IMG/VR virus record: IMGVR_UViG_3300035701_006853
Coordinates: 1 to 46,648 of that record
Origin: a virus
Strand: one strand, 5' to 3'
Length of the DNA: 46,648 bases
Of this stretch, positions 1,229-30,304 are shown piece after piece. Within the stretch, counting starts at the first letter, position 1. Each line of letters begins with the position of its first letter. Under the pieces are notes generated by a model that saw only the letters and a list, made by a program, of their open reading frames with translations, had not been told where the DNA came from and ran no database searches. A program made the translations under genes and the position numbers.

Positions 1229-4200
1229 GCCTAATTAGTGTTGGCGCAACGTTGCCTCTTGGCTACCAGCTCCACGACGGGGCAACGGGAAAGTTCGTCC
1301 GGGCCCACGTCCGAGACCAGGCAAACACTGCTGTCACGGGATCTCCTTTTGCACTGACTCACGTCGCGCAAGGGTTCTATTCGAACACCGCCTACACGGT
1401 GCTTATAGCCAACACTAAGCTCAAAGCTACCTTCATTGTCTATGACGATGCCGGTTTTACAACGGAGTCCGTATTCCATACGAGGGGCTCTGCTGAAACA
1501 GACGTAGAAACGCAGGTAGAAACTGCAAGGACTGACGTCCTGACCAGACTTGGGACCCCAGCGGGAGCCTCTGTCTCCGCAGACATGGCGGCAGTGAAAG
1601 CCGATACTGGAACGCTGATTACACGGCTTACCTCCGGCCGCGCAACGAACCTAGATAACCTTGACGCTACCGTGGGCTCACGCTCCACGCAAACTTCCGT
1701 CAATGCGATTCAAGCTGATACGGATGACATTCAGCTGAAGATCGGGACTCCCGTCGTAACGCTCGCAGCGGATATTGCCGGTGTGCAGACGACTGTCAAC
1801 ACCATCAACACCAGAGTTGGAGCCCCCGTCGGCGCCTCGATTTCTGCAGATATAGCTGCTGTGCAGACCACGGCGAACGCAGTCAACACTAAACTTGGAA
1901 CTCCTGCCGGGGCTACCGTCTCCGCAGATATCGCCGCGATCAAAGCCGACTCCGGTACGCTGGTCACGCGCCTCACAGCAGGCAGGGCTAGTAACCTTGA
2001 CTTCCTTGATGTGCTACTGTCTACCAGAGCAACGCAAACTTCGGTCGATGCATTGCAGACCACTGCCAATACCATCAATACCAGGATCGGCGCCCCTGTC
2101 GGTGCATCCATCTCAGCAGACATCGCGGCCGTGCAGACAACTGCCAATACAATCAATACCAGGGTCGGTGCCCCTGTCGGCGCTTCGATCTCAGCAGACA
2201 TTGCCGCCGTGCAAACCACCGCCAGTGCGATTAATACTAAGCTCGGTACTCCAGTCGGTGCATCAGTTTCGATAGATATTGCGGCCGTACAAACCACGGC
2301 TACTGCGATTGATACCAAGCTCGGCACTCCAGCGGGTGCTTCCGTCTCAGCGGATATCGCGGCAGTGAAAGCCGATACTGCTACCTTGACCTCGCGCCTT
2401 ACTTCCGGTCGCGCGAGCAATCTTGACTTCCTCGATGTGCTCTTATCGACGAGAGCAACGCAAACTTCGGTTAACTCGGTTCAGACCGATACGGACGATA
2501 TCCAAGCGAAGATCGGAACTCCTGTCGGTGTCTCTGTTTCTGCAGATATTGCAGCGGTGCAGACTACCGCCACAGCACTGGACACCAAACTTGGAACCCC
2601 AGTTGGGGCTTCGCTCTCCATAGATATCGCAGCGGTGCAAACTTCCGCCACAGCACTGGACACCAAACTTGGAACTCCAGCAGGTGCTTCCGTCTCAGCG
2701 GATATCGCGGCCGTCAAGGCTGATACTGCTACCCTGACTTCGCGTTTGACCTCGGGCCGCGCAACGAACCTCGATAACCTGAACGCTACTGTTTCCAGCC
2801 GCGCGACACAGACTTCGGTCGACGCAGTGCAGGCCGACACAGATGACATTCAGGCGAAGATTGGTACTCCCGTCGGAGCATCGCTGTCCGTAGACGTTGC
2901 GGCCGTACAAACCACAGCTACCGCAATCAACACCAAGCTCGGTACTCCAGTCGGGGCATCGGTTTCGATAGATATCGCAGCCGTACAAACCACAGCTACC
3001 GCGATCAACACTAAGCTCGGCACTCCAGCAGGAGCTTCGGTATCCGCAGATATCGCGGCAGTGAAATCTGATTCCGGTACACTCATTACGCGCCTCACCG
3101 CAGGCCGCGCCAGCAACCTCGACTTCCTCGATGTGCTGCTATCGACGAGAGCAACGCAAACTTCCGTCAACGCGGTACAGGCCGATACCGACGATATCCA
3201 GGTGAAGCTCGGTACTCCTGTTGGGGCTTCGCTCTCCGTAGATATCGCAGCCGTGCAAACGACTGCCAGTGCAGTCAATACCAAGCTCGGCACTCCGGCA
3301 GGAGCTTCCGTCTCTGCAGACATCGCATCGGTCTTCTCGCGCATCGGTGCTCCTGTCGGCGCCTCGATCTCCGTAGATATCGCGGCAGTCAAGACGCAGC
3401 TCAATAGCATCGAAACCAAAGTAGATGACCTCAGCAGTGCTTCGGATAGTGCAATCAGCATACCGTCGACCTTCCTAGTGCCTACAACCGGGACCAACGT
3501 CTTCCGCATCTACTGGCGGCACTTTGCGGCAGGGATTCCAGACAATCCATTCTCTGGTCCAGACATCACCATAGAAAGGTCGAACGGAACCGATATCGTA
3601 GCGTCCACGGCGATGACCCTGGAAGTTACCGGGGTCTACTACTACGACTACTCGGTGCCCGATACTGCGGATAATGGGATTCAGGTGATCGTTAAAGTCG
3701 ACTACGTGAACGACTCCGGCGGACCGACGTTCCAAGCGATTGCTACCGCTAACCAAACGAGCTCGGCCAGTGCCATCGACGATATTCTCACGATTCTCGG
3801 CACACCAGCGGGCGTCTCTGTGTCGGCGGATATCGCGGCACTGCAAACGACCTCCAACACTATTAACACGAAGATTGGAACTCCTGCCGGGGCTTCGCTA
3901 TCGGCAGACGTTGCAGCGATCTTCTCGCGCATCGGCGCTCCTGCCGGCGCAAGTGTCTCAGCGGATATCGCAGCTGTGAAGGCCGATACTGCTACCCTGA
4001 CTTCGCGTTTGACCTCGGGCCGTGCAACGAACCTTGATAACCTTGACGCTACGGTTTCCAGCCGAGCTACCCAGACTTCCGTGGATGCGGTACAAGCGGA
4101 CACAGATGATATCCAAGTGAAGATCGGTACCCCGGTCGGGGCTTCGCTCTCCGTAGATATCGCAGCTGTGCAAACTTCTGCTACTGCACTGGACACCAAG

Positions 4201-7200
4201 CTCGGCACTCCTGCCGGCGCAAGTGTCTCGGCGGATATCGCAGCTGTGAAATCCGACACAGCAACCCTGACTTCACGCCTCACTTCGGGCCGCGCGAGCA
4301 ACCTTGATAACCTGAACGCTACGGTTTCCAGCCGAGCTACCCAAACCTCGGTCGATGCGGTTCAAGCAGATACCGATGATATCCAGGTAAAACTCGGGAC
4401 TCCTGTTGGGGCTTCGCTCTCCATAGATATCGCAGCTGTGCAAACCACGACTACCGCGGTCAACACCAAACTTGGAACTCCAGCAGGTGCTTCCGTCTCA
4501 GCGGATATCGCAGCCTTGCAAACGACTGCTAATACAATTAACACCCGGATCGGTGCCCCCGTGGGTGCATCCATCTCTGCAGACGTTGCAGCGGTGCAAA
4601 CTACTGCAAACGCAATCAACACCAAACTGGGTACTCCAGCCGGTGCCTCAGTTTCGGCAGATATTGCAGCAGTGAAGGCTGATACCGCTACCTTGACCTC
4701 ACGTCTGACTTCTGGCCGCGCCAGCAACCTCGACTTCCTCGATGTATTGCTCTCAACCAGAGCCACACAGACTTCGGTCAACGGGATCCAGTCAGACATC
4801 GACACGCTTGAGCCGACCATTGCAGGGATCGCCTCTGACACGGCTACTCTTATTCTGCGCCTCACAGCAGGTCGTGCTACAAACCTTGACTTCCTTAACG
4901 TCTCGGTTTCAAGCCGCGCGACACAGACTTCGGTCGATGCAGTGCAGACCACCGCAAATACTATCAACACCAAGCTCGGCACTCCAGTCGGCGCTTCTGT
5001 TTCTGCAGACATCGCAGCAGTTAAAGCCGATACCGCCGCCATCCTTGATGATACCGGAACATCCGGTGTGCTCGTGGCCTCAGCAGAAAAAGATAGCATC
5101 GTGGACCGCGTGTGGGACGAGCTCCAGTCAGGGCATACTACAGCGGGAACCTTCGGTAAGCGTCTCGATGCGGACATGACCACCCGTGAGCCTGAGGCTT
5201 CCGCCCTCTCTCGCTTTAACACGACCTCCTCGGCTCTTGCGGCACTCCAGCTAGATACCGACGATATCCAGTCCAAGATCGGAACACCAGTCGTCAGCGT
5301 CTCTGCAGATATCGCAGCCAATCGAGTGGATCTTTTGGCAGTTCGCGCTCAAACGGATCTCATCAGCTTCGATGGCGGCAATCGCGTAAACGTCCACGTG
5401 ATCCTCAACGACGATAAGTCCAACTACGCACTCTCAGCCGCGTCCCGTGCCTCGGTATCAGATGACGTCTGGGACGAGGCTCTCAATGGTCATTTGATCC
5501 CAGGGTCGACTGGATTTGCCCTGAACAATGTCGGCGGCATCTCCCTTGCTGGCATCGCCGCGGCCGTCTGGGATGAACAAGCAGCCTCGCATAGCATCGC
5601 GGGGAGTTTCGGGATACTTACTCAAGTCATCCACCAATCTAGTCTCGTTACAACGGGCCAGTTGACTAACGGATCCTTCGGCCTTGCTGCGCTGTCGGCG
5701 ACTGTGACGAACTCAGCGGCAGCAACAACTGCTGCGGTCTTGGCGCAAAATCCGAACATTGCTGCGATCATCCCGGCAATCAACGCAAGTAAGATTGCGG
5801 TTATCGCCGAGGTGGACCAGAACCAGATCCTTCTGGAGGCTCTTGCAAACCAGCTTACTTCTGCCGAAGCTGACATCATCGCAGAGGTAGCGATCGTTAG
5901 CGGGAAAGTCGACGCTGTCAGCGCCCAGGTCGGTGCGATCCAGAACAACACAACCGTGCGGTTCATCGTGCCTGAGCGCATCTCCAAGCCTCTCAGCGGA
6001 AACAAGAACTACCAGATCCACCTGCGGCTCTACGATGACGTGGGCGTCCCAGAAGCGCCTGACTCGGCACCAACGATCCGTATTCGCCGGTTGGATACCA
6101 ATGTCGATGTTGTGCTGAATGTGCCCATGACCCAGGACGGGGTCAAGGTCGGGGCCTACTTCTACAACCTTATTATCTCGGCGGGCTCGGACATTTACCC
6201 GGCGCTGGTCGAGGCTACTGTTGTTGAAAACGGCGCCACTCGCTACGTGCCTGCTGTCACAGAGATTACCGAGTTCGATTCCGATCTGGACGCTATCCAG
6301 GCCCAACTCACTGCAGTCCAGAACACTGTGGATGCAACCCAGCTGTCTGTGGATAGCGGTGTCTATGGTCTCGCAGCTCTCAAAACTGGACAGACAGGCA
6401 TTGTTACCGAGATCAATCAGAACGAGACCCTGATAAATCTCGTCAAAGCCAAGACGGATACCATCCCTGTTGACCCAGCGACCCTGGCTTCGGTGGCTGC
6501 GGTAAATGCTACAGTACTGACTCGGCCAGACATCGCGGCTATCCAAACCCGTTTGGATCTTCTCCGTGATGCAATCCGTGGGACTGCAAATAGAACCAAC
6601 ACCCAGGTCTACGATAAGATCGACTTCACAGGTGTTATGCAGACGAGCGACCCTCGTCTCAACTTCCTGGATGCCGCGGTTTCTTCGCGCAGCACTCTGG
6701 ATGCAGCCACCGTCTGGGCCTACGCAACGAGAACCCTGACAGCGTCCTCGCTCTCAGCCGCCTCGATCCAGGCTATCTGGGACTTCCTGACCTCGGCTGC
6801 GACGGTCCCTGGCTCCTTTGGGCTCCGCATCGGAACCAACCTGGACGCAACAGTATCGAGCCGCGCCACAGCTGGCCAGGTAACCTCCCTACTCGTCGGC
6901 GTAGCGCAAGAGGCAAGCCTTGGCGCCCTCAGCACCCTCGTCAGCACAGAAGCCAACGAGAACGAGTTCAAGCTCAATGCCCTTCAGGCAGATGTCACGC
7001 TGATAAAAGCCAAAACGACGAACCTTCCTGCTGACCCGTCCTCCGCGTCGGCAATGTCGGCCGGCTTTAACGCCAACACCATTGCGGTGGCGAATGTGGC
7101 CCTCAACGTCACCGGAATCAAAACTAAGACTGACAATCTGCCAGTCGACCCCGCAAAAGAGAGCTCGGTCCTTGCAAGGCCGACCAACCCTGTTCTGACG

Positions 7201-8022
7201 AGCGATATCCGGCTCAACCGGCTCGATGTTAACGTCTCAACACGGAGCACCTTGACCACAGGTGACTTGGCTTTGCTGGCTACCACCGCACAGCTGAATG
7301 CAGGGAATGCCACGACTGTAGCCGAGATCAACGCCAACCAGGTGGATATCGCTGCGGTCCAGACCACGGCGAACCTGATTAAGGCGAAAACAGACCAGCT
7401 GGTCTATACCTCTGGGCGCGTGGATGCGGTCATCTCCGGCGCTCAAGAGGATGCGATTGTCGACAAGGTTTGGGACGAATCCAACGCGGCTCACGTTGCG
7501 GTTGGGTCCACGGGTGAGAGCCTTAGCGATGCCGCTGGCGGAGCGTCGCCGTCCGTTATTGCTGCTGCGGTATGGAACGAGGCCACAGCTGGGCATGTAG
7601 CTGCCGGCTCGTTCGGCAAGCTGACTGAAGATACCAAGGCCGATACCGGTACGATCAACACGAAGATCGGCACTCCAGCAGGCGCGTCGGTCTCGGCAGA
7701 TATCGCTGCAATTACCGAGTCGCATAGAACCTGCCGCATGTCGACAACCCTGACAGCGGGCGGCACTGCACAGGAAGTCATCGTTTGGGCGGAGGAGGCT
7801 GGGGAGCGGATCACAGTATCCAGTGCCTGCACTATCACTATCAAGACGGCTATCGGAGCAACGGTATGGACAGCAACGCTGGCGAGTCCGAACGCGGATG
7901 GCGTCTTCCGCTTTACAAACGCATTTGTGGCCGTGGCCGACGTCAACTACTACATTCTGATGTCGATTACCGTCGCGGGCCAGCCGGTCGTAACTCAGCA
8001 GGCGTTTATAACCGTGGGGTGA
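1225..8022 (+). CDS. Giant repeat-containing tail fibre protein
   Basis: 2265 aa; its ATG overlaps the previous stop as ATGA. Residues 1-95 form a beta-rich N-terminal domain. From about residue 95 to 740 and 850 to 1280 the protein is built from reiterated units with signatures LGTPAGASVSADIAAV, TLTSRLTSGRA, NLDNLDATVSSRATQTSV and QADTDDIQ, alternating heptad-like alpha segments and short turns as in trimeric coiled-coil fibres. Two related beta-sandwich-like inserts interrupt it, at about 744-843 and 1575-1682. A second repeat family, VWDE-x(4-5)-H-x(3)-GSFG, occurs about six times between 1290 and 2140. A Thr/Val-rich beta domain closes the C-terminus (about 2166-2265). This is the pattern of a long tail or side fibre. 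The receptor-binding end cannot be identified from sequence alone. Confidence 0.85.
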   Translation: MSLISVGATLPLGYQLHDGATGKFVRAHVRDQANTAVTGSPFALTHVAQGFYSNTAYTVLIANTKLKATFIVYDDAGFTTESVFHTRGSAETDVETQVETARTDVLTRLGTPAGASVSADMAAVKADTGTLITRLTSGRATNLDNLDATVGSRSTQTSVNAIQADTDDIQLKIGTPVVTLAADIAGVQTTVNTINTRVGAPVGASISADIAAVQTTANAVNTKLGTPAGATVSADIAAIKADSGTLVTRLTAGRASNLDFLDVLLSTRATQTSVDALQTTANTINTRIGAPVGASISADIAAVQTTANTINTRVGAPVGASISADIAAVQTTASAINTKLGTPVGASVSIDIAAVQTTATAIDTKLGTPAGASVSADIAAVKADTATLTSRLTSGRASNLDFLDVLLSTRATQTSVNSVQTDTDDIQAKIGTPVGVSVSADIAAVQTTATALDTKLGTPVGASLSIDIAAVQTSATALDTKLGTPAGASVSADIAAVKADTATLTSRLTSGRATNLDNLNATVSSRATQTSVDAVQADTDDIQAKIGTPVGASLSVDVAAVQTTATAINTKLGTPVGASVSIDIAAVQTTATAINTKLGTPAGASVSADIAAVKSDSGTLITRLTAGRASNLDFLDVLLSTRATQTSVNAVQADTDDIQVKLGTPVGASLSVDIAAVQTTASAVNTKLGTPAGASVSADIASVFSRIGAPVGASISVDIAAVKTQLNSIETKVDDLSSASDSAISIPSTFLVPTTGTNVFRIYWRHFAAGIPDNPFSGPDITIERSNGTDIVASTAMTLEVTGVYYYDYSVPDTADNGIQVIVKVDYVNDSGGPTFQAIATANQTSSASAIDDILTILGTPAGVSVSADIAALQTTSNTINTKIGTPAGASLSADVAAIFSRIGAPAGASVSADIAAVKADTATLTSRLTSGRATNLDNLDATVSSRATQTSVDAVQADTDDIQVKIGTPVGASLSVDIAAVQTSATALDTKLGTPAGASVSADIAAVKSDTATLTSRLTSGRASNLDNLNATVSSRATQTSVDAVQADTDDIQVKLGTPVGASLSIDIAAVQTTTTAVNTKLGTPAGASVSADIAALQTTANTINTRIGAPVGASISADVAAVQTTANAINTKLGTPAGASVSADIAAVKADTATLTSRLTSGRASNLDFLDVLLSTRATQTSVNGIQSDIDTLEPTIAGIASDTATLILRLTAGRATNLDFLNVSVSSRATQTSVDAVQTTANTINTKLGTPVGASVSADIAAVKADTAAILDDTGTSGVLVASAEKDSIVDRVWDELQSGHTTAGTFGKRLDADMTTREPEASALSRFNTTSSALAALQLDTDDIQSKIGTPVVSVSADIAANRVDLLAVRAQTDLISFDGGNRVNVHVILNDDKSNYALSAASRASVSDDVWDEALNGHLIPGSTGFALNNVGGISLAGIAAAVWDEQAASHSIAGSFGILTQVIHQSSLVTTGQLTNGSFGLAALSATVTNSAAATTAAVLAQNPNIAAIIPAINASKIAVIAEVDQNQILLEALANQLTSAEADIIAEVAIVSGKVDAVSAQVGAIQNNTTVRFIVPERISKPLSGNKNYQIHLRLYDDVGVPEAPDSAPTIRIRRLDTNVDVVLNVPMTQDGVKVGAYFYNLIISAGSDIYPALVEATVVENGATRYVPAVTEITEFDSDLDAIQAQLTAVQNTVDATQLSVDSGVYGLAALKTGQTGIVTEINQNETLINLVKAKTDTIPVDPATLASVAAVNATVLTRPDIAAIQTRLDLLRDAIRGTANRTNTQVYDKIDFTGVMQTSDPRLNFLDAAVSSRSTLDAATVWAYATRTLTASSLSAASIQAIWDFLTSAATVPGSFGLRIGTNLDATVSSRATAGQVTSLLVGVAQEASLGALSTLVSTEANENEFKLNALQADVTLIKAKTTNLPADPSSASAMSAGFNANTIAVANVALNVTGIKTKTDNLPVDPAKESSVLARPTNPVLTSDIRLNRLDVNVSTRSTLTTGDLALLATTAQLNAGNATTVAEINANQVDIAAVQTTANLIKAKTDQLVYTSGRVDAVISGAQEDAIVDKVWDESNAAHVAVGSTGESLSDAAGGASPSVIAAAVWNEATAGHVAAGSFGKLTEDTKADTGTINTKIGTPAGASVSADIAAITESHRTCRMSTTLTAGGTAQEVIVWAEEAGERITVSSACTITIKTAIGATVWTATLASPNADGVFRFTNAFVAVADVNYYILMSITVAGQPVVTQQAFITVG
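1540..5080 (+). repeat. Tandem degenerate repeats within the fibre gene
   Basis: At DNA level the stretch consists of many near-identical blocks, for example those encoding GTPxGASVSxDIAAVQTTA and KADTATLTSRLTSGRA, repeated dozens of times with mostly synonymous or conservative changes. A unique beta-domain segment (about 3457-3754) splits the array. Such arrays can change length by unequal recombination, and they are also prone to misassembly, so the exact number of copies here should be treated with caution. Confidence 0.85.
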
Positions 8023-13171: not shown

Positions 13172-16100
13172 ATGAGAAATTTTGACGCCACCCAGCAATC
13201 GCAATCAGTGAAAACATCGGCAGTGGACGCCGTGAAAAGCATCTTTCCCGTGGTCGGCAAGATCCGAACGATGCAGCTCGATAATGTGTGGGTAGAGGAA
13301 AAGGCTGATCTGAATGACTACGCCGCCCAGGCAAAGACCAAAACGCAGGAAGGCACTTGGGGCGTCCCTGTGTATGCAAGCCTCTCGCTTATTGAAAACC
13401 AGAGCGGAAAGGTGGTCGACAAAGCCCCGAAAATCAGGCTGTTCCTTTTGCCTATGGTCACGGATCGCTCCAGCTACATCGTGGCTGGCAACGAATACCA
13501 AGTTAATAACCAACTGAGACTGAAGACCGGGGTTTACACGGTCAGGAAGCAAAACGGTGAGCTCAAAACTCAGGTTAACCTCGCGAGAGGGAAAAACTTT
13601 GACCTCGGTTTTAATGAGGCAAGTGGTATCTTCACCCTACAAAAGGTCGGCGGCGGCCAAACGAACATTCCTCTTTATCCTATTCTTACTCATCTCGGCA
13701 TATCTCCTTCTCTCATTGCACAAACCTGGGGGTCTAAACTGGAGGCCGTGAACCAGCGGGGCGATCCTAAGTCGGTAGCGCGCGCGGAGACGGCTTTTGG
13801 GGCGCAGAAGGCTGGGCTCTCTGAGTACTTCAAGAAGACCGAGATCTCCAGTGCGACAACCAAAATGGTGCTGGGAACGGGATACGATAAAGTGGACGGA
13901 CCTATGCTCCTGGCCTGCTCGAAAAACCTCCTGGAGGTGCAGCTCGGAAAGAAGGAGGCCGTCGACCGCGACTCCCTTGCTTTCAAGGAGCTGCACAGCA
14001 TTGAAGACTTTATCAAAGAGCGGCTTGAGAAGAATAAGAAGGACCTGGCCTATAAGATTCAGCGGCAGATTGATTCCTTGCGCCGAACCAAGGTGACCCA
14101 AATCGTCAACCCTGGCCTCTTCAGCGGAGTCGTGCAGAGTTTCTTTACGCAGGATGATAAATCGTCCACCCCCGAGCAGACCAATCCCTTGGAAATGCTC
14201 TCCGGTGCATACAGGGCTAGCTTCATGGGTTCAGGCGGGATCACCTCGCAACACGGAATCAAAGACGAGACGCGGCAGATCCATCCTTCGCACTACGGGT
14301 TCATTGACCCAGTGCATACGCCAGAAAGTCAAAAAATCGGCGTAAACCTGCATTTACCAATGGGTGTGGTGAAAGACGGCAAGGACCTAAGAGTCCAATT
14401 GGATAACGCCAAGTCTGGTAAAAGAGAGCTTTTAACCCCTGTCGAAAGCTGGGAGAAGTACGTGGCCTTTCCTGGGCAGACAGGCGATTCGCTAAAGGTT
14501 ATGCACCAAGGCGCAATCCAAACTGTGCCCCGCTCAAAGGTGGACTTTTACACGCCGAGCGCCACCATGCTGTTCTCACCGTCGACCAACCTTGTCCCGT
14601 TTCTGCCGGCGAATCAAGGCAATCGGGCTATGATGGCTTCCAAAATGCTCGAGCAAGCGATCGGTCTCAAGCATCGTGAGGCCCCGCTTGTTCAGGTGGG
14701 CGTCGCCCCCGATGTTTCCATGGAGCAGCTGGTAGGGCATAATATTGCGGCACATGCGCCGGATGCGGGGACCGTTAAAAAAGTGACTGCAGACGGTATC
14801 CTGCTTGCGACAGCCAAGGGCGACGTCAAGGTCAACCTCTACAACAACTTCACGCTGAACAGGAAGTCGTTTCTTAACCATACCGCACTCGTCAAAGAGG
14901 GCGACACGGTAGCCAAAGACCAGCTTCTAGCTGAGAGCAACTTCACCAAAGACGGCACTCTTGCGTTGGGCATAAACCTCCGCACAGCCTACATCCCTTA
15001 TAAGGGCTACAACTTTGAGGACGGTATCGTCATCTCACAGTCCGCCTCTGAAAAGCTGACAAGCGAGCACATCTATAAGAAAACCTACGAGATTTCCAAG
15101 AACTCCATAATGAAGCTGCCTTCGTTCCGCGCGTTCTACCCCAACGCAATCACTGCCGCAAATGCGGCCAAGCTCGATTCGGATGGGGTTATAAAGAAGG
15201 GTCAGCGTGTTAAAACAGGTGAGGTGATCATCGCCGCTCTGCAAAAGAGAAACCCAGACGCACGCATCGCGGTCATCAGCAAGACACTTGCAGAAAGGCC
15301 AAAAGATGCCAGTATCTACTGGACTGCTGAGGACGAAGGGACTGTCACAGAAGTCCAAAGAGGGACTGGCTCGGTCTCCGTTTTCATAAAAACTGAAGAA
15401 GCTGCGAGAATTGGCGATAAGCTCTCTGGCCGGATGGGCAACAAGGGGATCATTACTAAGATCCTTCCGGATGCCCAGACGCCCCGCGATGGAAGCGGAA
15501 AGCCGGTCGATATCCTACTCAACCCTCATGGTGTTATCGGCCGGATCAATATCGGGCAAATCTATGAGTCAGCCGCCGGAAAAGCCGCACTTAAAAACGG
15601 TGCCCCCTACAAAGTCGAGAACTTCACAGGGCAAAATTACCTTGGGACAACTCGAAAGTTTCTCAAGCAGTCAGGCATTAAGGATAAAGAAGAACTCTTC
15701 GACCCTGAAACAGGTAAGAGTCTCGGCGATGTCCACGTTGGAAACCCATATATACTTAAGCTCTTTAAACAATCCGCAGGTAACTTTTCAGCTCGGCAAG
15801 GGGGACCTGGAGCTACTTACGACGCAAATATGCAGCCCGTTAAAGCTGGAGGAGAAGAAGGCTCAAAAAGCCTAGATCTTCTGACGATGTACTCCATGCT
15901 CTCGCACGGGGCAAGGGCTAACCTGCAAGAGATGTCGACGCTTAAAAGTAATAAGAACGATGAGTATTGGACGGCTCTACGTGGGGGCCAGCAGCTGCCG
16001 CCGCCTAAAGCGCCCTTCATCTACGATAAGTTTATCGCCTACTTAAAAGGCGCTGGTATAGACGTTACCAAAGACGGCACCAAGTCCACACTTGGGCCGC

Positions 16101-19100
16101 TTACCGACAGTCACGCACTTGAGATGTCTTCGGGTGCGGTCATGAAGCCTCACTTTTATCATGCAAAAGATTTTCAGCCGGTTAAGGGCGGGTTCTTTGA
16201 TACCCGGACTTTTGGTGGTATCGCCGGTAAGAAGTGGGGGCATCTGGACCTGAAGGAGCCCGTAGTCAATCCAGTCTTTGAGGACGCTGCCCGAAACCTT
16301 CTTGGCCTTGCTGGTAAGTTTGACGAAGTCGTCGGCGGGAAGCTCTTTGTGCAAAAAGATGGCTCCCTTAGCAAAGGCAGTGCTGGCGGCCTGACTGCCG
16401 GTGCCGGCATTGAGCGCCTATTAAAGAACGTGGATGTCGATACGCAGCTGGAGAGCCTGACGAAAAAAGCCGCGGGCTTCACTGGCACAAAGCTGAATGA
16501 TGCCAACAAAAAACTTCGCTACCTTACTGCGCTCAAGACGCTGAACATGAAACCCCACGAAGCGTATATCCGCCGCAATGTGGCTGTGCTGCCGCCGATT
16601 TATCGGCCCATCTACCCGCTTCCAGATGGGAGCATGGCCAGCTCGGATGTGAACACCCTCTATCAAAAGCTGGGCGTCGTCAATTCGATGATGCAGCTGC
16701 CCGTCATGTCTCTTCTCCCGGAAGAGGAAAAGGCCAATATCCGGCAGGATCTCTACAACCATGTGAAAGGTGTAGCGGGCCTGATGGACGTGACCACAAA
16801 AGGCAAAGTTAAGGACGGCCTCATCGCGCAGATTAAGGGCGGCACGGGCGGTCAGCCCAAAGAGGGCCTTTTCATTAGTAAGCTCCTAAGCAAGCAGCAG
16901 GATTTTGTGGGGCGCGGCACTATTATTCCCGAGCCCTCCCTTGGCATCGACGAGATGGCGATGCCTGAGGAGATGGCCTGGAAACTCTTTGAGCCATTTG
17001 TCGTCCGTGAGCTTAAAAGCATGGGAAAAAATCCGCTGCAGGCAAAAGAGGAGATCAAAAAGAAATCAGCGCTTGCCAAGCGAGCTCTGCAAATAGTCAT
17101 GAGCACGCGGCACGTTCTTCTGAACAGGGCGCCGTCACTTCATAAGTTTTCGATCATGGCGTTTAAGCCGAAGATCACCGATGGCAAGGCGCTGAAGATC
17201 CCGCCACTGATAGTGAAGGGATTTAATGCAGATTTCAATGGGGATTCCATTGATATTACTACCATTATTAACGTCAGGTATAATAAAAATGAGTTGACTC
17301 AAGAGCCCCTTTGGGTTTATTACTCTCTCGTTGCCGGCAATCTTTTTGAAATGGTCACGGGTAAAACTATCGACGAGATGGTGGCTGAGGCCCGTGGTTT
17401 TACAGCGATCTACGAGATTGCTGGGGGGAGGTTGCAGACAATGTCAATGATAGATGGAAGCCCAGAATGGACCGATGTTCAGCGCCTTACTGTCCACACG
17501 TCTCACGGGCCTTGCTATGAGGTACTGACTCATACAGGAACCCGCGTGATCACGACCGAGCACCACAACTTCAGCTATATCAATGAGGCGTTCGATCTGT
17601 GCTGCGTAAAAACCGAGGTGATGCGGCCTGGGGTGCTGCTGCCGAAAGCATTGCCCAACATAGGCTCTAGCAACATCCAAACTCTAAAGATCTCGAACGT
17701 CACGCATCGACTTGACGAGGAGATGGCGTGGGTTCTTGGCTTTTACGCAGGAGACGGGTCCGCGTCGGACGCGACGGTTTCTTTCTGCGACACGGACCCA
17801 GTCGTCATGGAGCATATCTGCGGCATTCTGCGTCGCCGCTTTAATTTCGGAACAAAGCTCCAAGGTACAAAGCTCCATAAGGATTGCATTGCGAGGCTCT
17901 ATAGCAAAGAGCTTTGCAACTGGTTTACGGAAAACTGCGGTGCTGGGTTTGCCGGCGTAAAAATTCCGACGGAAATCTTCAACAGCCCACACGCAGTCAG
18001 GCTCGCCTACGTACGCGGAGTATTTCAGGCGGAAGGCAGCGTTGGCCCAGACGCGTACGGTAACTACCAAGCTCGGCTTGAGATGTGTAACTTCCCATAT
18101 GTCGAGTCCCTTCGCTACCTCATGTCTTCTGTTGGCCTTGACGCGTACCTCGCTGAATGCCTCCACGAAGGCCGGCAGACCGGCCACCTTCTGAGGCTGC
18201 GAAAGTCCTGTATGGCTACACTCCAGCCGGTCCTAAGCAAAAAACAGGAAAAGTTGGCTGAGGCGGTGCGGGTGAAAGATAGCCGCCGGCACCGGGACGA
18301 TTACGATATTGTGCCGTTCTCAAAAGCACTGCTCGACGAAGTCGTCGCCATAGGCCATAGGCACAAAAGCCTTTCAAAAACTGATAAAGCAGCAGTCGCC
18401 GAATGGAGGGCGAAAAACCCTGGCAGGAAAATCTCCGCCATGGATCATTTTAAAGGTAACCAAGAGTTTGTCTCGCGCCATATAGCTTTTGATGTCATCC
18501 ATACTTACGGAGCTCTGGCCTCACCCTACTTTTTGAAGTGGGCGGGTCTTGTCAAGGACGAGCGTCTTCGCTGGGAACAGGTGCTGAGCATCACGGAGGT
18601 TCCGAGGAAAGAGGTTATGTTTGACTTTACGGTCCCGCGTGGCGAGATGTTTCTCGTGCAGAATGGGCTTTTCACCCACAATACCATGACTGTGCACGTT
18701 CCTGTCAGCGAGGACGCAAACAAGGAGGCCGCTCGGCTTTTGCCTTCTAGAAACCTGTTTCAACCCGGCACAGGCTCGCTCATGATCCAACCTTCTCAGG
18801 AAGCGCAGATCGGGCTTTTCTACCTCTCGCAGACCCCAGCGGGCAGGCAGAGAATAAATGTTCTTCTGCCCGATAAGTATAAGATTTCGGCCATGCTGGA
18901 CAAGAAAGCTACGGGCACGCTGACGATGGCGCTTGCGAAAGAATTGCCCGCAAATCAATACGGCACTATCGTTGCGGCGCTTAAGGCTGAGGGTGAGAAG
19001 CACGCTTTTGAGCGGGGCTTTACTCTCGGCATGGATGATATCGCCCAATTTGGTGCGACACGGGACCGGATTGTGGATGCTGCGGATAAGGCTGCGAAGA

Positions 19101-20638
19101 AGGCCAAGACCCCAGAAGAGCTGATGTCGATCAACAAGCGCGCGTCCTCCCTCATTGATAAGATGATTGACCATAAGCTGGTAGGAAAGGACAACCCTCT
19201 CTACGACATGGTTCAGTCTGGTGCGCGCGGCAACAGCAGTCAGCTCAGGCAGATCATTGCCTCTCCGCTATTTATGTCTGATGAGAAGGGCCGGATTGTC
19301 CCAACAGCGATCAAGAAGTCTTACGCCGAAGGGCTGGATATCGGGGACTATTGGATCTCCATGTACGGGGCTCGTCGCGGAATGATGGATCGCGCAATCC
19401 AGACTTCGCTGCCGGGGGCATTCTCCAAAGACATAATGGCGACCACGATCAACAACGTGGTTTCCATGGAAGACTGCGGAACCCATGAGGGGGTTACCCA
19501 TAAACTGGACGACAAAGATGTGTTCGATCGGTACATGGCCGGCGACCAGGGCGGCTACTCGCACAATACGCTAGTGGACGCGCGTGTCCTCTCGGATCTA
19601 AAAAAACACGGGCTCTTGCAAGTGAAGGTGCGAAGTCCGCTGCGTTGCCGGGCACCAAAGGGCACTTGCGCCAAATGCTACGGCATAGACGAGCATGGTG
19701 GGGCGCCGTCGGTTGGCGACAATATCGGCTCGAAGGCAGGGCAGACGATGTCCGAGCCATTAATACAGATGGTGATGCGAACGTTCCATACTGGCGGGGC
19801 TGCGGGCACAGGCGCTGATGCTCAAGGCTATGCGCGAGTCAATCAGCTCCTGCAGATGCCGAAGATTGTGGTGGGCGCTGCACCTCTTGCGGCCAAGGAC
19901 GGCAAGGTCTCGAAGATTACCAAGGGCCTCGGCGGCGGATTTGATGTGACGCTTGAAGGTTCTGTCTACCATGTGCCTGCAGGCAAGCCGCTCAAAGTTT
20001 CTGTGGGCAGCAGGGTAGCTATCGGCGATCCGCTCTCAGAGGGCGTGGTGAAGCCACAGGACCTCGTGAAGCTCAAGGGGATGGACGCGGCGCAAGACTA
20101 CATCGCTAGCGAGCTGCAGAAGTCCTACGCTGGACAGGGCATTCATTTGCACAGAAAGATCTTTGAGACGGTCGTGCGCTCCTTGGGCAATACGACTCAG
20201 GTTCAGAACAACCCCAAAGACACGGGCTATCTGCCGGGGGATATTATCCCTTACACCGTAGCTCAGGACTACAACCGCAATCTTGAGGTCACTAAAACCC
20301 CAGAGGACGCGGTCGGCTATAAGCTCAGCAAGGCAACGGAGGGCATGCGTGAAGGCCATACCGTAACGCAGGCCGATGCTGATGTTATGAGAGCTCGTGG
20401 CATTAAAGAGCTCACGATTAAAAAAGACCCATTGATCCATGCGCCTTTGCTAAAATCCCTCAAAACGCTGCCGCTCCTCAGTAAGGATTGGATGGGCTCG
20501 CTTGGCTACCAGCAGCTTCAGAAGGCGCTGACTCTCGGCGCTGGCCAAGGCTGGTCTACGGATACTTCTGGATATCACCCTATCCCGGCATTTGCGCAGG
20601 GCGTGGCGTTCGGCAAAGGAAAGGACGGTAAGTATTGA
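13172..20638 (+). CDS. Single-chain RNA polymerase: beta fused to beta', interrupted by an intein
   Basis: 2488 aa as translated, 2009 after intein removal. Beta motifs come first: HYGFIDPVHTPES (374-386), GYNFEDGIVIS (from 612), GDKLSGRMGNKG (from 748) and the beta C-terminal-type segment near MYSMLSHGARANLQEM. Beta' motifs follow: GGFFDTRTFGG (about 1005-1015), the switch/rudder region VLPPIYRPIYPL, VGRGTIIPEP, LLNRAPSLHKF (from 1316), the Mg-binding loop NADFNGD (1352-1358), MVHVP-type sequence after the intein, four zinc cysteines (2102, 2159, 2166, 2169), and trigger-loop MRTFHTGG (from 2202). The order and completeness are those of cellular rpoB-rpoC joined in one chain. The middle catalytic Asp is Asn1356. 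It lies between phage structural genes and heads a plus-strand module with a helicase. It probably transcribes phage genes; whether it is packaged in the virion is inference. Confidence 0.95.
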   Translation: MRNFDATQQSQSVKTSAVDAVKSIFPVVGKIRTMQLDNVWVEEKADLNDYAAQAKTKTQEGTWGVPVYASLSLIENQSGKVVDKAPKIRLFLLPMVTDRSSYIVAGNEYQVNNQLRLKTGVYTVRKQNGELKTQVNLARGKNFDLGFNEASGIFTLQKVGGGQTNIPLYPILTHLGISPSLIAQTWGSKLEAVNQRGDPKSVARAETAFGAQKAGLSEYFKKTEISSATTKMVLGTGYDKVDGPMLLACSKNLLEVQLGKKEAVDRDSLAFKELHSIEDFIKERLEKNKKDLAYKIQRQIDSLRRTKVTQIVNPGLFSGVVQSFFTQDDKSSTPEQTNPLEMLSGAYRASFMGSGGITSQHGIKDETRQIHPSHYGFIDPVHTPESQKIGVNLHLPMGVVKDGKDLRVQLDNAKSGKRELLTPVESWEKYVAFPGQTGDSLKVMHQGAIQTVPRSKVDFYTPSATMLFSPSTNLVPFLPANQGNRAMMASKMLEQAIGLKHREAPLVQVGVAPDVSMEQLVGHNIAAHAPDAGTVKKVTADGILLATAKGDVKVNLYNNFTLNRKSFLNHTALVKEGDTVAKDQLLAESNFTKDGTLALGINLRTAYIPYKGYNFEDGIVISQSASEKLTSEHIYKKTYEISKNSIMKLPSFRAFYPNAITAANAAKLDSDGVIKKGQRVKTGEVIIAALQKRNPDARIAVISKTLAERPKDASIYWTAEDEGTVTEVQRGTGSVSVFIKTEEAARIGDKLSGRMGNKGIITKILPDAQTPRDGSGKPVDILLNPHGVIGRINIGQIYESAAGKAALKNGAPYKVENFTGQNYLGTTRKFLKQSGIKDKEELFDPETGKSLGDVHVGNPYILKLFKQSAGNFSARQGGPGATYDANMQPVKAGGEEGSKSLDLLTMYSMLSHGARANLQEMSTLKSNKNDEYWTALRGGQQLPPPKAPFIYDKFIAYLKGAGIDVTKDGTKSTLGPLTDSHALEMSSGAVMKPHFYHAKDFQPVKGGFFDTRTFGGIAGKKWGHLDLKEPVVNPVFEDAARNLLGLAGKFDEVVGGKLFVQKDGSLSKGSAGGLTAGAGIERLLKNVDVDTQLESLTKKAAGFTGTKLNDANKKLRYLTALKTLNMKPHEAYIRRNVAVLPPIYRPIYPLPDGSMASSDVNTLYQKLGVVNSMMQLPVMSLLPEEEKANIRQDLYNHVKGVAGLMDVTTKGKVKDGLIAQIKGGTGGQPKEGLFISKLLSKQQDFVGRGTIIPEPSLGIDEMAMPEEMAWKLFEPFVVRELKSMGKNPLQAKEEIKKKSALAKRALQIVMSTRHVLLNRAPSLHKFSIMAFKPKITDGKALKIPPLIVKGFNADFNGDSIDITTIINVRYNKNELTQEPLWVYYSLVAGNLFEMVTGKTIDEMVAEARGFTAIYEIAGGRLQTMSMIDGSPEWTDVQRLTVHTSHGPCYEVLTHTGTRVITTEHHNFSYINEAFDLCCVKTEVMRPGVLLPKALPNIGSSNIQTLKISNVTHRLDEEMAWVLGFYAGDGSASDATVSFCDTDPVVMEHICGILRRRFNFGTKLQGTKLHKDCIARLYSKELCNWFTENCGAGFAGVKIPTEIFNSPHAVRLAYVRGVFQAEGSVGPDAYGNYQARLEMCNFPYVESLRYLMSSVGLDAYLAECLHEGRQTGHLLRLRKSCMATLQPVLSKKQEKLAEAVRVKDSRRHRDDYDIVPFSKALLDEVVAIGHRHKSLSKTDKAAVAEWRAKNPGRKISAMDHFKGNQEFVSRHIAFDVIHTYGALASPYFLKWAGLVKDERLRWEQVLSITEVPRKEVMFDFTVPRGEMFLVQNGLFTHNTMTVHVPVSEDANKEAARLLPSRNLFQPGTGSLMIQPSQEAQIGLFYLSQTPAGRQRINVLLPDKYKISAMLDKKATGTLTMALAKELPANQYGTIVAALKAEGEKHAFERGFTLGMDDIAQFGATRDRIVDAADKAAKKAKTPEELMSINKRASSLIDKMIDHKLVGKDNPLYDMVQSGARGNSSQLRQIIASPLFMSDEKGRIVPTAIKKSYAEGLDIGDYWISMYGARRGMMDRAIQTSLPGAFSKDIMATTINNVVSMEDCGTHEGVTHKLDDKDVFDRYMAGDQGGYSHNTLVDARVLSDLKKHGLLQVKVRSPLRCRAPKGTCAKCYGIDEHGGAPSVGDNIGSKAGQTMSEPLIQMVMRTFHTGGAAGTGADAQGYARVNQLLQMPKIVVGAAPLAAKDGKVSKITKGLGGGFDVTLEGSVYHVPAGKPLKVSVGSRVAIGDPLSEGVVKPQDLVKLKGMDAAQDYIASELQKSYAGQGIHLHRKIFETVVRSLGNTTQVQNNPKDTGYLPGDIIPYTVAQDYNRNLEVTKTPEDAVGYKLSKATEGMREGHTVTQADADVMRARGIKELTIKKDPLIHAPLLKSLKTLPLLSKDWMGSLGYQQLQKALTLGAGQGWSTDTSGYHPIPAFAQGVAFGKGKDGKY
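17246..18682 (+). mobile_element. LAGLIDADG intein inside the polymerase catalytic loop
   Basis: 479 codons, residues 1359-1837. It starts at Ser1359 directly after NADFNGD and ends at His-Asn (FTHN), with Thr1838 as the first C-extein residue. Removing it rejoins NADFNGD to TMTVHVPVSEDA, the normal continuation of this beta' motif. Splicing blocks are visible: a block-B-like TGTRVITTEHHNF (about 1453-1465), and block F/G EVMFDFTVP, then VQNGLFTHN. The endonuclease part has two LAGLIDADG-type helices, LGFYAGDGS (1522-1530) and VRGVFQAEGS (1614-1623), each with its acidic catalytic residue. Block A (SIDITTIINV) is divergent. Both splicing and homing functions therefore look intact. The product must splice for the polymerase to work. 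Confidence 0.92.
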
Positions 20639-21135
20639 TGGATTATGTAATTTTTTACCACGGCACCTGGTCTGAAGCCTCGCGCAGCGTGAAGCAGAAG
20701 CTGGACAGGCACAAGGGTGCCGATAGCGTTGAAGTCCGGGAAGTCGATGTAGATAAGGCCACAACGCCTCCGACTTATGATGGTCAGCTTATCCGCTCTC
20801 TTCCCTTTTTGGTGCGCTATGAGAACGGTCGTCCTGTCGATCACCTAGTGGGTGACGTTCCTGAGGATGCGGTGCGCCGCTTTATTGCCAGGACTCGGAC
20901 GAAGACGGCCTTCTGGGACGGGTTCGAGAAGGCCGCAAGAAAGCTGACAAGCAAGGCGCGTAATGCCTTGACCGATGACAGTTTCGTCTTCCCTGGCGAA
21001 CGACGCTACCCCATCCACGATATCAATCATGCGCGAAATGCGCTGGCCCGAGTAGCTCAGAATGGGAGCCCCTCTGAGCAATCCGCTGTGCGGTCTGCTG
21101 TGCATCAGAAATATCCCGAGCTGAAAGAGGATTGA
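20638..21135 (+). CDS. Redox-dead thioredoxin-like protein with FWDGF motif and C-terminal phage domain
   Basis: 165 aa; the ATG overlaps the polymerase stop (TGATG). Residues 1-85 have a thioredoxin-like pattern: strand VIFYHGTW, then a cis-proline strand SLPFLVRYENGR with Pro56. The expected W-C-x-x-C is W11-S-E-A-S, both cysteines being serine, so disulfide chemistry is excluded. Residues 89-100 carry KTAFWDGFEKAA, the motif shared with neighbouring genes. Residues about 110-165 (FVFPGERRYPIHD, then HARNALARVAQNG) match a small domain I remember from many phage structural proteins (DUF6582-like). Three modules in one small protein suggest an adaptor. The following gene starts 1 base after its stop. 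Confidence 0.75.
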   Translation: MDYVIFYHGTWSEASRSVKQKLDRHKGADSVEVREVDVDKATTPPTYDGQLIRSLPFLVRYENGRPVDHLVGDVPEDAVRRFIARTRTKTAFWDGFEKAARKLTSKARNALTDDSFVFPGERRYPIHDINHARNALARVAQNGSPSEQSAVRSAVHQKYPELKED

Positions 21136-21136
21136 A

Positions 21137-22567
21137 ATGAACGCATTTTGGCGAGGCTTTCTGAAGCAGGCAAAGCTCCGTGAATCCACGAAACTAGAGC
21201 CGCACCAGCTCAGAGTTCAAGAGCGCCTCAAGAAAAAACCGGGGCTGCTCCTCTACCACGGCCTCGGCAGCGGCAAGAGCCTATCAGGAATTGCGGCTTC
21301 GCAAGGCGAAAAAACCGACGTCGTAGTGCCTGCCAGCCTTCGCGGAAATTTCCAGAAGGAGGTGCAAAAGCACACGACCGGCTACAAGCCCAATATCATG
21401 AGCTACGATAAGGCGGTAAAGACTCCTGCAACGGGCGATACCTTGATCGTGGACGAAGCGCATATGCTCGGCACGCCTGGCTCGATGAGAAGTCAGGAAC
21501 TGCTCAGAAAAGCCCCTGAGTACAAAAAGAGGATTCTGCTGACAGGTACCCCAATCCGAAACCACCCATACGAAATCGCCCCGCTGCTCAGAATGGTGCG
21601 CGGCGACGATGCGGTGCCGACCGACCCAAAGGCGTTCAACGAGCAATACATCTCCGAGCAGAAAGTGAGTCCCGGAATCTTGGCCAGGATCTTTCACGGC
21701 GCCAAGAACGGGGTGGAGTACAAGATCAAAAACCCGGACAAGTTCTCCTCACTCGTCCAGGGTTACGTCGACTACCACGCGCCGGCCAAAGAGAATTTCC
21801 CGGCCGTCACCCACGAAAGCATCGACGTCCCCATGAGCAGTGAGCAAATGAAGTACTATGACTTTGTCATGAAAAAGGCAGGGCCTGCGCTCAAATACAA
21901 GATTCAGCGCGGCCTCCCCCCATCGAAAGCCGAGGCTACCCAATTGAACGCGTTCCTATCCGGAGCGAGGCAGGTAGCCAATAGCACCAAGTCCTTTGGC
22001 GGGACGGAGACCTCTCCTAAGATCCAGAGGGCGGTGACGGCTCTTCAAGATTTGAACGCTAAAGACAAGAACTTCAGGGGGCTTGTCTATTCAAACTACC
22101 TTGACGCAGGTGTCCGCGATTACGCCGACCAACTCAAGTCGTCTGGGATTCCCCATGCGATCTTTGACGGGAGCCTCTCCGATTCCAAGCGAAAAGCCAT
22201 GATTCACGACTATAACACTGGCAAAGTGAAAGTCTTGCTCATCTCCGGCGCAGGGTCCCAGGGCCTGGATCTGAAAGGGACTAAACTCATCCAACTGCTA
22301 GAGCCGCACTGGAACAATGCCAGACTCGAGCAGGCCGAGGGTCGGGGAATTCGCTACAAAAGCCACGACCACCTTCCAGAGGCCGAGCGGCACGTGCTGG
22401 TGCAAAGATTCCAGTCGACCATACCCAAGTCATTTACCCAAAAGATTCTGGGTCAAGAGGCCAATATGGGGGTCGACCAATATCTCAGCATGCTCTCCGG
22501 CAAGAAGGATGCGCTGAACGCGCAGTTTCTGGATATTCTAAAACAGCAGGGCAGCAAGCCTGTATAG
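21137..22567 (+). CDS. SF2 helicase/ATPase, Snf2- or viral D6/D11-like
   Basis: 476 aa. Helicase motifs in order: Q-motif-like HQLRVQ (23-28), Walker A GLGSGKS (42-48), DEAH box VDEAHM (105-110), motif III LTGTP (135-139), motif IV GLVYSN (315-320), motif V GAGSQGLDL (371-379), and motif VI QAEGRGIR (399-406) with its arginine finger. A complete ATP-dependent translocase is therefore expected, acting on duplex DNA or on nucleic acid-protein complexes. The first residues, MNAFWRGFLKQAK, are the FWxGFxKxA motif at the very N-terminus. It follows the polymerase and thioredoxin-like genes with almost no spacing, so it may assist transcription, as Snf2-family and poxviral D6/D11 ATPases do. Confidence 0.88.
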   Translation: MNAFWRGFLKQAKLRESTKLEPHQLRVQERLKKKPGLLLYHGLGSGKSLSGIAASQGEKTDVVVPASLRGNFQKEVQKHTTGYKPNIMSYDKAVKTPATGDTLIVDEAHMLGTPGSMRSQELLRKAPEYKKRILLTGTPIRNHPYEIAPLLRMVRGDDAVPTDPKAFNEQYISEQKVSPGILARIFHGAKNGVEYKIKNPDKFSSLVQGYVDYHAPAKENFPAVTHESIDVPMSSEQMKYYDFVMKKAGPALKYKIQRGLPPSKAEATQLNAFLSGARQVANSTKSFGGTETSPKIQRAVTALQDLNAKDKNFRGLVYSNYLDAGVRDYADQLKSSGIPHAIFDGSLSDSKRKAMIHDYNTGKVKVLLISGAGSQGLDLKGTKLIQLLEPHWNNARLEQAEGRGIRYKSHDHLPEAERHVLVQRFQSTIPKSFTQKILGQEANMGVDQYLSMLSGKKDALNAQFLDILKQQGSKPV

Positions 22568-22576
22568 GAGACTGCG

Positions 22577-24241
22577 ATGGGCCCCTTTCTAGTAGGCTTT
22601 ACGAAAAAAGCGAAAAAAGAAAAGAAAAGAGAGCCTCTAAACATCTGGGGCCGGTCGGCAAATGCCCTTGGTACAATTGCGACTGGGAACCTCTTTGGAT
22701 ACCTGGGCGCCGTAGGCGCAGTGGGCGCGATGAATCAATTAGAAAAGCTCGACTCGCGACTCTCACCAGAAGAGGCGGAGAGCTTTATGAAGAATGTTAG
22801 CCGCGACAAAGGCCTAACCACTAGTTATAGGCCCAACTTTCGGGCGAGTGGGGCGTTCATGCCGCTCGAAAACGCTATTCAAACGGAGCTCTCGCCTACT
22901 GCCGGAACACTCGCTCACGAGTTGGGGCATGCTACCTCTATGCGCGGTTTCACTGGGGGCGGTGAAAAATTAGAGGGCCCTCTTAGACAGTATCTCAGCG
23001 GCACTCTCACGAACCCAGCGGACAGAAAACGCGCGCGGTCTGCGTTGCTCAAGCTCGGACCTATGTTTGCAGGGAGGCGCTTGATGGTTCCTGCGCAGGC
23101 TGGGTTGCTCCTCGCCAATAGCGAGACTGGGGACAAGATAGCCCCGTATGTGCCGTTTGTTATGCATGCACCGAACCTTATCGAAGAGGGCGGGGCTTCG
23201 TTACGGGCTCTCGGGATGCTGGCAAAGCACAGGGGCGGGGCTAAGGCCGCACTCCGGGCTGCGCCAGGTCTTGCTGCCGCATTTGGGAGCTACTTAGCTG
23301 CACCGCTAGCGATGACCCTGGCCACGGCTGGGTACTTGAATAGGAAAAAGGACCGCCTGGAGAGGGAGAAAAACGCGATGACTGAACCAAGCAAATCCGA
23401 TCTGAAAGCTCTCTTGCAAAAACACGAGGACAGGGAAACACCAGAGCAGGAGAGTGCTGAGTCCGAAGAAGAGCAGAAAGAGGAGCGGGCTGCCGGCCTT
23501 CATGAGAAGAGTGCCTTTTGGGATGGCTTCGAGAAAAGAGCGCTCAACCTCGCGACGGCTCGCGCAGCTATGGGGAGGTTTAAGGACAAACTTATCAGAC
23601 GGGCCCCGAAACTCAACACAGAGTCCGTTAACGCGCACATAGAGGGTAGGACACCGAAGGAAAAATTTATAAGTCTTAGTAAAGACAAGCTAAGCGCTGG
23701 GGGCGATCCGCTCCGGAGGGCGGGGCATATGATGAATGCTCAAGGCACGGTATCTTCACACCCACAGGCGAATCTAAAAACTTTCGCCAAAGGCGACATG
23801 CTTGAGGTACTTGCACCCGGAATGAAATTGCCTGCTGCTTGGAACCCGAAAAATAGAGAGATGACGAACCGGATAATGCATCTACATGAGCAGGCAGAGA
23901 GGAAAAGTTTTGGCAAAGCCAAAACCCTGTGGGCAGGTTCTCATGCCGACCCCAGAGTCATCCTAGAGGAGAGTAATGCACTGGCATCTCTCCCAAAAAA
24001 GGGGTACAGCCCAACAAAGAGGCTGTTCCATGGACTGCGTGAGGCGGACAATACGAAGCACCTCCTGGAACATGCAGTACCTAAATTCCGGTACGGTAAA
24101 ATGAGACTAAGCAGACATGGTGTTAAGCACATGCGCAGGATTCTGGAGGAGAAAAATATGCAGGCGATACCCTTCCCGGGCACAGAAATCAAAAAAGTTG
24201 CGTTTTGGGATGGGTTCTCGACACGTAGTCTAAGGTCTTAG
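22577..24241 (+). CDS. HExxH metallopeptidase-like membrane protein with repeated FWDGF motifs
   Basis: 554 aa. It starts MGPFLVGFTKKAKK, a degenerate FWxGFxKxA. A hydrophobic Gly/Ala segment (about 31-52) follows, then TLAHELGHAT with the zinc-binding HExxH at 114-118, and IEEGGAS (about 202-208) as a possible third zinc ligand in gluzincin style. A second hydrophobic region is at 225-253. An acidic Glu-rich linker (about 288-305) leads to KSAFWDGFEKRA (312-322), and a second, basic helical module runs to the C-terminus, which ends in KVAFWDGF-x(7) (543-547). It looks like two modules joined, each with the motif at its edge. An SD (GGAGACTGCG) precedes the ATG. The last 12 bases overlap the convergent minus gene. 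Peptidase activity is inferred from the motif only. Confidence 0.7.
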   Translation: MGPFLVGFTKKAKKEKKREPLNIWGRSANALGTIATGNLFGYLGAVGAVGAMNQLEKLDSRLSPEEAESFMKNVSRDKGLTTSYRPNFRASGAFMPLENAIQTELSPTAGTLAHELGHATSMRGFTGGGEKLEGPLRQYLSGTLTNPADRKRARSALLKLGPMFAGRRLMVPAQAGLLLANSETGDKIAPYVPFVMHAPNLIEEGGASLRALGMLAKHRGGAKAALRAAPGLAAAFGSYLAAPLAMTLATAGYLNRKKDRLEREKNAMTEPSKSDLKALLQKHEDRETPEQESAESEEEQKEERAAGLHEKSAFWDGFEKRALNLATARAAMGRFKDKLIRRAPKLNTESVNAHIEGRTPKEKFISLSKDKLSAGGDPLRRAGHMMNAQGTVSSHPQANLKTFAKGDMLEVLAPGMKLPAAWNPKNREMTNRIMHLHEQAERKSFGKAKTLWAGSHADPRVILEESNALASLPKKGYSPTKRLFHGLREADNTKHLLEHAVPKFRYGKMRLSRHGVKHMRRILEEKNMQAIPFPGTEIKKVAFWDGFSTRSLRS

Positions 24242-29980: not shown

Positions 29981-30304
29981 ATGCGGTACTTTTGGCAAGG
30001 CTTTCGTAATAAAACGTCTGCTGCCGTGCAGTTTAAAAAACACGTGCTGGTTCTCTACTGGGAGAAATCAGATGCACGCAGTGAGCAGGCTAAGGGAAAT
30101 ATGAGCCGTCTTGCAAAGAGATACCCTACCGTCCGGGTGAAGCTCATCGAAGTCCGCAAAGACCCGATGAAGCCTGTAAGGCAGGGGGTGTCTGCGTTTC
30201 CTACCGTAGTTTTGCTGAAGGACGGTCGCGAAGTGGACAGACTTGCTGCCGAGACGGATGGCGCTACGCTTCTCGAGCAGCTTTTTCGAAAAGCGCAGAC
30301 GTGA
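29981..30304 (+). CDS. Redox-dead thioredoxin-like protein with N-terminal FWQGF motif
   Basis: 107 aa. It opens MRYFWQGFRNKTSA, the same tag-like motif as in the helicase gene. From residue 20 it has a thioredoxin fold pattern: HVLVLYWEKSDARS, a helix (EQAKGNMSRLAKRY), strand VRVKLIEVRKD, then SAFPTVVLLKDGREVDRL with the cis-proline at 74. The active-site Cys pair is absent (W27-E-K-S-D), so it cannot act as a disulfide oxidoreductase. A second thioredoxin-like protein without cysteines is encoded next to the polymerase, with the motif placed after the fold instead of before it. A structural or processivity role is possible. Confidence 0.72.
   Translation: MRYFWQGFRNKTSAAVQFKKHVLVLYWEKSDARSEQAKGNMSRLAKRYPTVRVKLIEVRKDPMKPVRQGVSAFPTVVLLKDGREVDRLAAETDGATLLEQLFRKAQT

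Follow-up and report, generated by a model that had tools for sequence, protein, structure and literature searches.

Inteins have been described in archaeal RNA polymerases, namely in Mja rPol A', Mja rPol A'' and Nph rPol A'' (PMC1635734), and homologues of the beta and beta' subunits are encoded by phages such as the mReC phages (PMC7481178) and jumbo phages (PMC7598289), in papers where the word "intein" does not occur. The catalytic triad motif has been termed invariant across all multisubunit RNA polymerases (PMC4982682). The locus presented here is a phage polymerase gene with a LAGLIDADG intein directly behind the metal-binding loop, in which one of the three Asp residues is Asn. It shares with the archaeal cases the location of the intein in conserved sequence of a largest-subunit homologue, while the hosts of the latter are cellular and not phages. 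To our knowledge, no linkage with a replacement of catalytic Asp by Asn has been reported for those archaeal inteins, and our search of the open literature found no paper linking an intein to the NADFDGD motif.

The intein-split polymerase gene

The window, by which we mean the whole stretch of DNA analysed, is a 46.6-kb virus fragment from IMG/VR (46,648 nucleotides) whose genes include a portal-like protein, the large terminase subunit and a helicase; the host of its polymerase is a tailed phage. An open reading frame of 2488 amino acids, free of stops, contains an insert of 479 residues, the flanks of which match the Rpb2 and Rpb1 core domains of multisubunit RNA polymerases in Pfam and NCBIfam. 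Since the left part resembles bacterial beta and the right part beta', the polymerase is a fused beta-beta' chain, with the following features.

13172-20638, plus strand: fused beta-beta' RNA polymerase gene, split by the intein (open reading frame; Pfam/NCBIfam RpoB and RpoC matches flanking the insert)
13172-17245, plus strand: N-extein, comprising beta and the start of beta' up to and including NADFNGD (RNA_pol_Rpb2_6, E 4e-57; RNA_pol_Rpb1_2, E 2e-21)
17207-18699, plus strand: tract of low divergence from sister phage L001, the intein with 39 bases upstream and 17 downstream (mismatch map)
17225-17245, plus strand: catalytic metal-binding loop NADFNGD (sequence; three Asp in each of 71 aligned, readable intein-free relatives)
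17237-17239, plus strand: AAT (Asn) codon replacing the middle catalytic Asp, position -3 of the intein (sequence, alignment, scans)
17246-18682, plus strand: family-A intein of 479 residues with LAGLIDADG endonuclease (in-frame insert; Pfam/NCBIfam; family alignment)
17246-17248, plus strand: Ser1, N-terminal splicing nucleophile (invariant in family A)
17555-17566, plus strand: block B, TEHH (TxxH; invariant in family A)
17732-17761, plus strand: first LAGLIDADG motif (LGFYAGDG), acidic D170 (Pfam; family alignment)
18008-18037, plus strand: second LAGLIDADG motif (YVRGVFQAEG), acidic E263 (Pfam; family alignment)
18620-18682, plus strand: C-terminal splicing blocks FDFTVP...LFTHN, ending in His-Asn (TIGR01443 intein_Cterm; family alignment)
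18683-20638, plus strand: C-extein, the rest of beta', beginning with Thr+1 (TMTVHVP) (RNA_pol_Rpb1_5, E 5e-22; rpoC_TIGR, E 6e-87)

An earlier note, made from the letters of the window, had placed a LAGLIDADG intein with intact splicing ends and two intact endonuclease motifs exactly behind the loop, and its coordinates turned out to be exact to the base. The insert matches Pfam Intein_splicing (E 7.6e-12) and LAGLIDADG_3 (E 1.2e-7), both above the curated cut-offs, the Hint splicing domain PF14890 scoring 45.7 bits against a cut-off of 35.8 and PF14528 matching in two stretches; NCBIfam intein_Cterm (TIGR01443) is likewise above its own cut-off. Ser1, T104-E-H-H107, D170, E263, D460, H478 and N479 are invariant in all three distinct members of family A, in each of which N479 is followed by Thr. 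The residues characteristic of class 1 inteins (Ser1, TEHH, His478-Asn479, Thr+1) are thereby identical in three lineages, and the two motifs with acidic D170 and E263 are those of a LAGLIDADG homing endonuclease. Judged by its residues, the insert is a complete class 1 intein with predicted splicing. An AlphaFold model of the intein, built from three input sequences, had a mean pLDDT of 39 and was discarded.

Scanning viral contigs with the N-extein returned 135 related stretches, from which 79 loci were retrieved. In alignment across the insertion site, 71 readable intein-free relatives read through without interruption, so the 479 residues form an in-frame insert at a precise site that is absent from these homologues, as is characteristic of class 1 inteins. 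The nearest intein-free relatives, L008 and L015 (73% identity over the joined extein), read NADFDGDTMTVHVP at the site and are ungapped there; NADFNGD joined to TMTVHVP, which the earlier note had proposed, is hence the expected spliced reading.

The same site is occupied in other relatives. Family A is present beyond the window species in L010 and in L211/L119, with 49-71% identity mutually and to the window intein; a divergent group B lies at the identical position in L011, L046, L082/L085, L083 and L220, and a type C intein in L062. By these sequences the catalytic-loop site is a hot spot of intein invasion, used by at least three divergent intein types. Group B includes odd splice ends, such as Gln1 (L083), Asp1 (L011) and a terminal Asp ahead of Thr (L046, L082, L220). 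Additional inteins of relatives interrupt beta near residues 386, 763 and 788 and beta' near 1728; that at beta 386 is a second intein of 352 residues in the sister phages L001 (2553-3608) and L002, beginning with CYDEE after HTPE and ending in CGN before SDKIG, while the position is empty in the window and carries allelic inteins in L011, L062 and L073.

Two other observations concern the surrounding genes. Positions 1225-8022 encode a protein of 2265 residues, mostly repeats of the GTPAGASVSADIAAVK type, for which a family search gave no significant match. Moreover, several proteins that are otherwise unrelated share the motif [AS]FW.GFEKRA close to their N- or C-terminus, both in the window (20635-21135, 21137-22567, 22577-24241, 29981-30304) and in L008, L010, L015 and L211, for example as AFWDGFEKAA, MNAFWRGFLKQA and SAFWDGFEKRA; it possibly serves as a tag for virion targeting or binding.

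Asparagine in the catalytic triad

The earlier note had taken the Mg-binding aspartates as intact, which is not the case: Asn stands at the position of E. coli beta' D462. The loops of the intein-free alleles vary (NADFDGD, SADFDGD, GADFDGD, NMDFDGD, AADYDGD or NADVDGD), yet all three Asp are present in 71 of 71. The window polymerase lacks the three-Asp motif DxDGD while its homology is otherwise clear, and it is therefore a deviant member of the multisubunit RNA polymerases, the spliced product of which differs from every intein-free relative examined.

How widespread is this change? Among the matches listed for a scan with DNA encoding bare NADFNGD, nearly all belonged to an unrelated repeat protein, so IMG/VR was scanned with a degenerate DNA pattern for PL[VIM]xx[GA][FY]NADFNGD; this and the control scans used exact patterns in a single sequence context. 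The pattern was found in four contigs, those of the two sister phages, of L010 and of L119/L211, representing three phage lineages that all carry a family-A intein at the site. A control scan for NANFDGD in the same context gave zero matches, and one for NADFDGN matched three contigs, all from a single phage, with a group-B intein directly past the loop. Thus every viral RNA polymerase allele found with Asn in the triad has an intein at the site; these inteins belong to two divergent groups, and the Asn stands at -3 or -1, the two triad positions closest to the junction. Across four phage lineages, with two certain origins, the linkage has a p value of about 0.01 when counted by origins and of 1.6e-4 by lineages. 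Among 84,980 bacterial and archaeal genomes, the NADFNGD pattern occurs in one short contig of a metagenome-assembled genome labelled Salinibacterium (L209), within an ordinary RpoC that has no intein; this Asn is perhaps a sequencing error. Conversely, Asp is retained in L046, L062, L082 and L083, which have inteins at the same position; an intein there does not in general require Asn.

Ways of recovering Asp were also considered. A shifted splice boundary is excluded for family A by the positions of Ser1 and His-Asn/Thr; for NADFDGN, Asp would be regained if the boundary lay one residue further upstream, but this would require Asn1 and Asp+1, a chemistry that is not known. Editing of AAT to GAT by A-to-I conversion is disfavoured by the lack of a TadA-like UACG context. 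Nor did we find, among the few contrasts available, an acidic residue specific to family A near the loop that might compensate for the change.

The remainder of the polymerase is conserved. Between the window and L001 the extein dN/dS is 0.034, part of which may predate the arrival of the intein in one of them. At 99-100 near-invariant columns the family-A alleles deviate about as rarely as relatives with Asp, the triad Asn being the sole family-specific deviation common to all members, and L220 has four further deviations that are mostly conservative. The exteins are uninterrupted over 2009-2100 residues. The contigs of L010 (118 kb) and L221 (178 kb) yielded no second multisubunit polymerase, nor did a backup polymerase turn up on the possibly incomplete contigs of relatives (74-185 kb).

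Mobility of the intein and persistence of the asparagine

Spread by homing, which the earlier note had suggested as a gene drive, is visible in the comparison with sister phage L001: The exteins differ at 302 of 6027 bases (5.0%) and the inteins at 6 of 1437 (0.4%; Fisher p = 2e-21), the nearest extein mismatches lying 40 bases upstream and 18 bases downstream of the insertion. Recent transfer with short co-conversion is a pattern known from phage homing (PMC2988022), and the divergence map bears the signature of such a transfer, leaving the sequence footprint of site-specific spread that a homing endonuclease produces. The Asn codon falls within the co-converted tract. Family A has probably moved between the lineages of the window, L010 and L211 too, because the inteins of L010 and L211 are more similar (71%) than their exteins (60%), whereas the order is reversed between the window and L010 (intein 53%, extein 60%). 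Long co-conversion flanks are not visible between these older lineages, the sequences of which have diverged.

In the six-member clade around the window, the tree requires at least three changes between Asn and Asp, all tracking the presence of family A: L008 is intein-free and has Asp, and L011, whose sister L211 carries Asn, combines Asp with a group-B intein. Over 40 codons around the site, the three Asn lineages differ pairwise at 17-21 synonymous positions; the flanking synonymous sites have thus largely changed, and Asn is not a fresh passenger in these lineages, even if a single transition would revert it to Asp. On this sequence record, Asn and intein travel and persist jointly in an otherwise conserved polymerase.

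Origin of the linkage and known systems

Why should a selfish element be tied to the loss of a catalytic Asp? The explanation that we consider probable is a mobile LAGLIDADG intein residing at the catalytic-loop site, with the Asn codon as part of the mobile unit and Asn kept to suit the junction. During mixed infection, the endonuclease would cut the conserved NADFDGD-coding DNA of intein-free phages, and the intein would be copied in during repair of the break, along with tens of bases on its flanks. Lying 7 to 9 bases ahead of the insertion, the Asn codon would effectively fall within the mobile unit and be transferred and retained with family A. The Ser1/His-Asn/Thr+1 intein would then excise itself, joining NADFNGD to TMTVHVP; that splicing and DNA cutting both work is what the intact residues and the transfer footprint lead us to infer. 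Asn might suit the family-A junction by reducing metal chelation or side reactions in the precursor, for instance, its cost in polymerase activity being tolerated or repaired later. This last step, retention for the sake of the junction at such a cost, is the least certain and only tentatively held. Against the whole scheme stand the four inteins that keep Asp at the same site, the small number of lineages and certain origins, and the intein-free Asn of L209. Still, the most economical reading would have Asn in the mobile unit, fitting the splicing junction, with a spliced enzyme that copes.

A simpler account, which we regard as unlikely, makes Asn a mere passenger of homing that arose once in a donor allele, spread by co-conversion and is tolerated by the spliced enzyme. 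It agrees with the location of the codon in the recently transferred tract and with the RNA polymerase of Nanoarchaeum, in which natural acid-to-amide changes at the metal site are compatible with activity (PMC8204694). However, Asn has outlasted extensive synonymous change in its flanks when one transition would restore Asp, a second and different intein group is tied to another Asp-to-Asn change (NADFDGN), and no Asn is present among the intein-free viral alleles found. Doubtful to us is also a stricter version of the mobile unit, in which intein and Asn are co-adapted and an inactivating Asn is tolerated, or converted by a process such as deamidation, only via the intein-bearing precursor; activation of the polymerase would then be delayed and loss of the intein costly.

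Rather improbable is the related possibility that the gene encodes Asn as a forerunner of the catalytic Asp. Spontaneous deamidation of the Asn-Gly pair, perhaps faster in the intein-bearing precursor, would then yield NADFDGD with a delay, as in a chemical timer. Asn is a residue able to become Asp after translation, Asn-Gly is by far the fastest dipeptide in model peptides, reacting within days (PMC4682632), and the rest of the polymerase is conserved, while YonO, a distant homologue, loses its activity when all three Asp are replaced by Asn (PMC5467207). Days are nevertheless long relative to an infection, and the Asn-Gly pair follows automatically from the Asp change, as the Gly is invariant. 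The usual product of Asn deamidation is, moreover, isoAsp. Asn followed by Thr deamidates slowly, so that the NADFDGN lineage, which gives Asn-Thr once spliced, fits this chemistry poorly.

Very unlikely, in our judgment, is the regulated switch of the earlier note, by which the intein would time the activation of the polymerase. With the insert in place, the catalytic loop is cut off from the rest of its domain, and the unspliced precursor can therefore reasonably be expected to be inactive; conditional splicing is also described for other inteins (PMC5790916, PMC6195587). Yet no regulatory feature was found, most relatives lack an intein here, and its presence varies among close phages as for a parasite. 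Least credible is a dead or non-catalytic polymerase with a drifting loop, which would account for the replacement of one catalytic Asp in four of four lineages but not for the low dN/dS, the conserved near-invariant sites, the unbroken exteins and the lack of a second polymerase on the 118- and 178-kb contigs.

The mobile unit carrying Asn thus remains our preferred reading. A selfish element beside the triad that brings an Asp-to-Asn change constitutes a natural test of how much the triad is needed, and bears on whether active sites are remodelled by the inteins that invade them and on Asn as a possible encoded precursor of catalytic Asp; a hot spot with several divergent inteins is also useful for studying competition among phage inteins.

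Among known systems, the top solved-structure matches to the endonuclease part are the PI-PkoII intein (PDB 2cw7) and V-ATPase inteins (7qsu, 7qss; E 2e-11 to 7e-7), with low similarity and different host proteins. The RPB2, RPA2 and RPC2 inteins of eukaryotes and viruses (PMC1635734) are equally mobile and placed at most conserved sites near the active centre, but they reside in the second-largest subunit, at other sites that do not adjoin the metal-binding triad. As for the polymerase, the nearest annotated records are those of Salmonella phage Arash and Vibrio phage D69, with about 33% identity. In both phages the polymerase is split about 90 residues past the catalytic loop, and the remaining beta' is encoded by a separate downstream gene; in Vibrio phage D181 the beta part is broken by DNA annotated with a homing endonuclease, which its close relative D69 lacks. 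Like the mReC and jumbo phages, these phages encode beta and beta' homologues as the window does, whereas in the window the two form a single chain.
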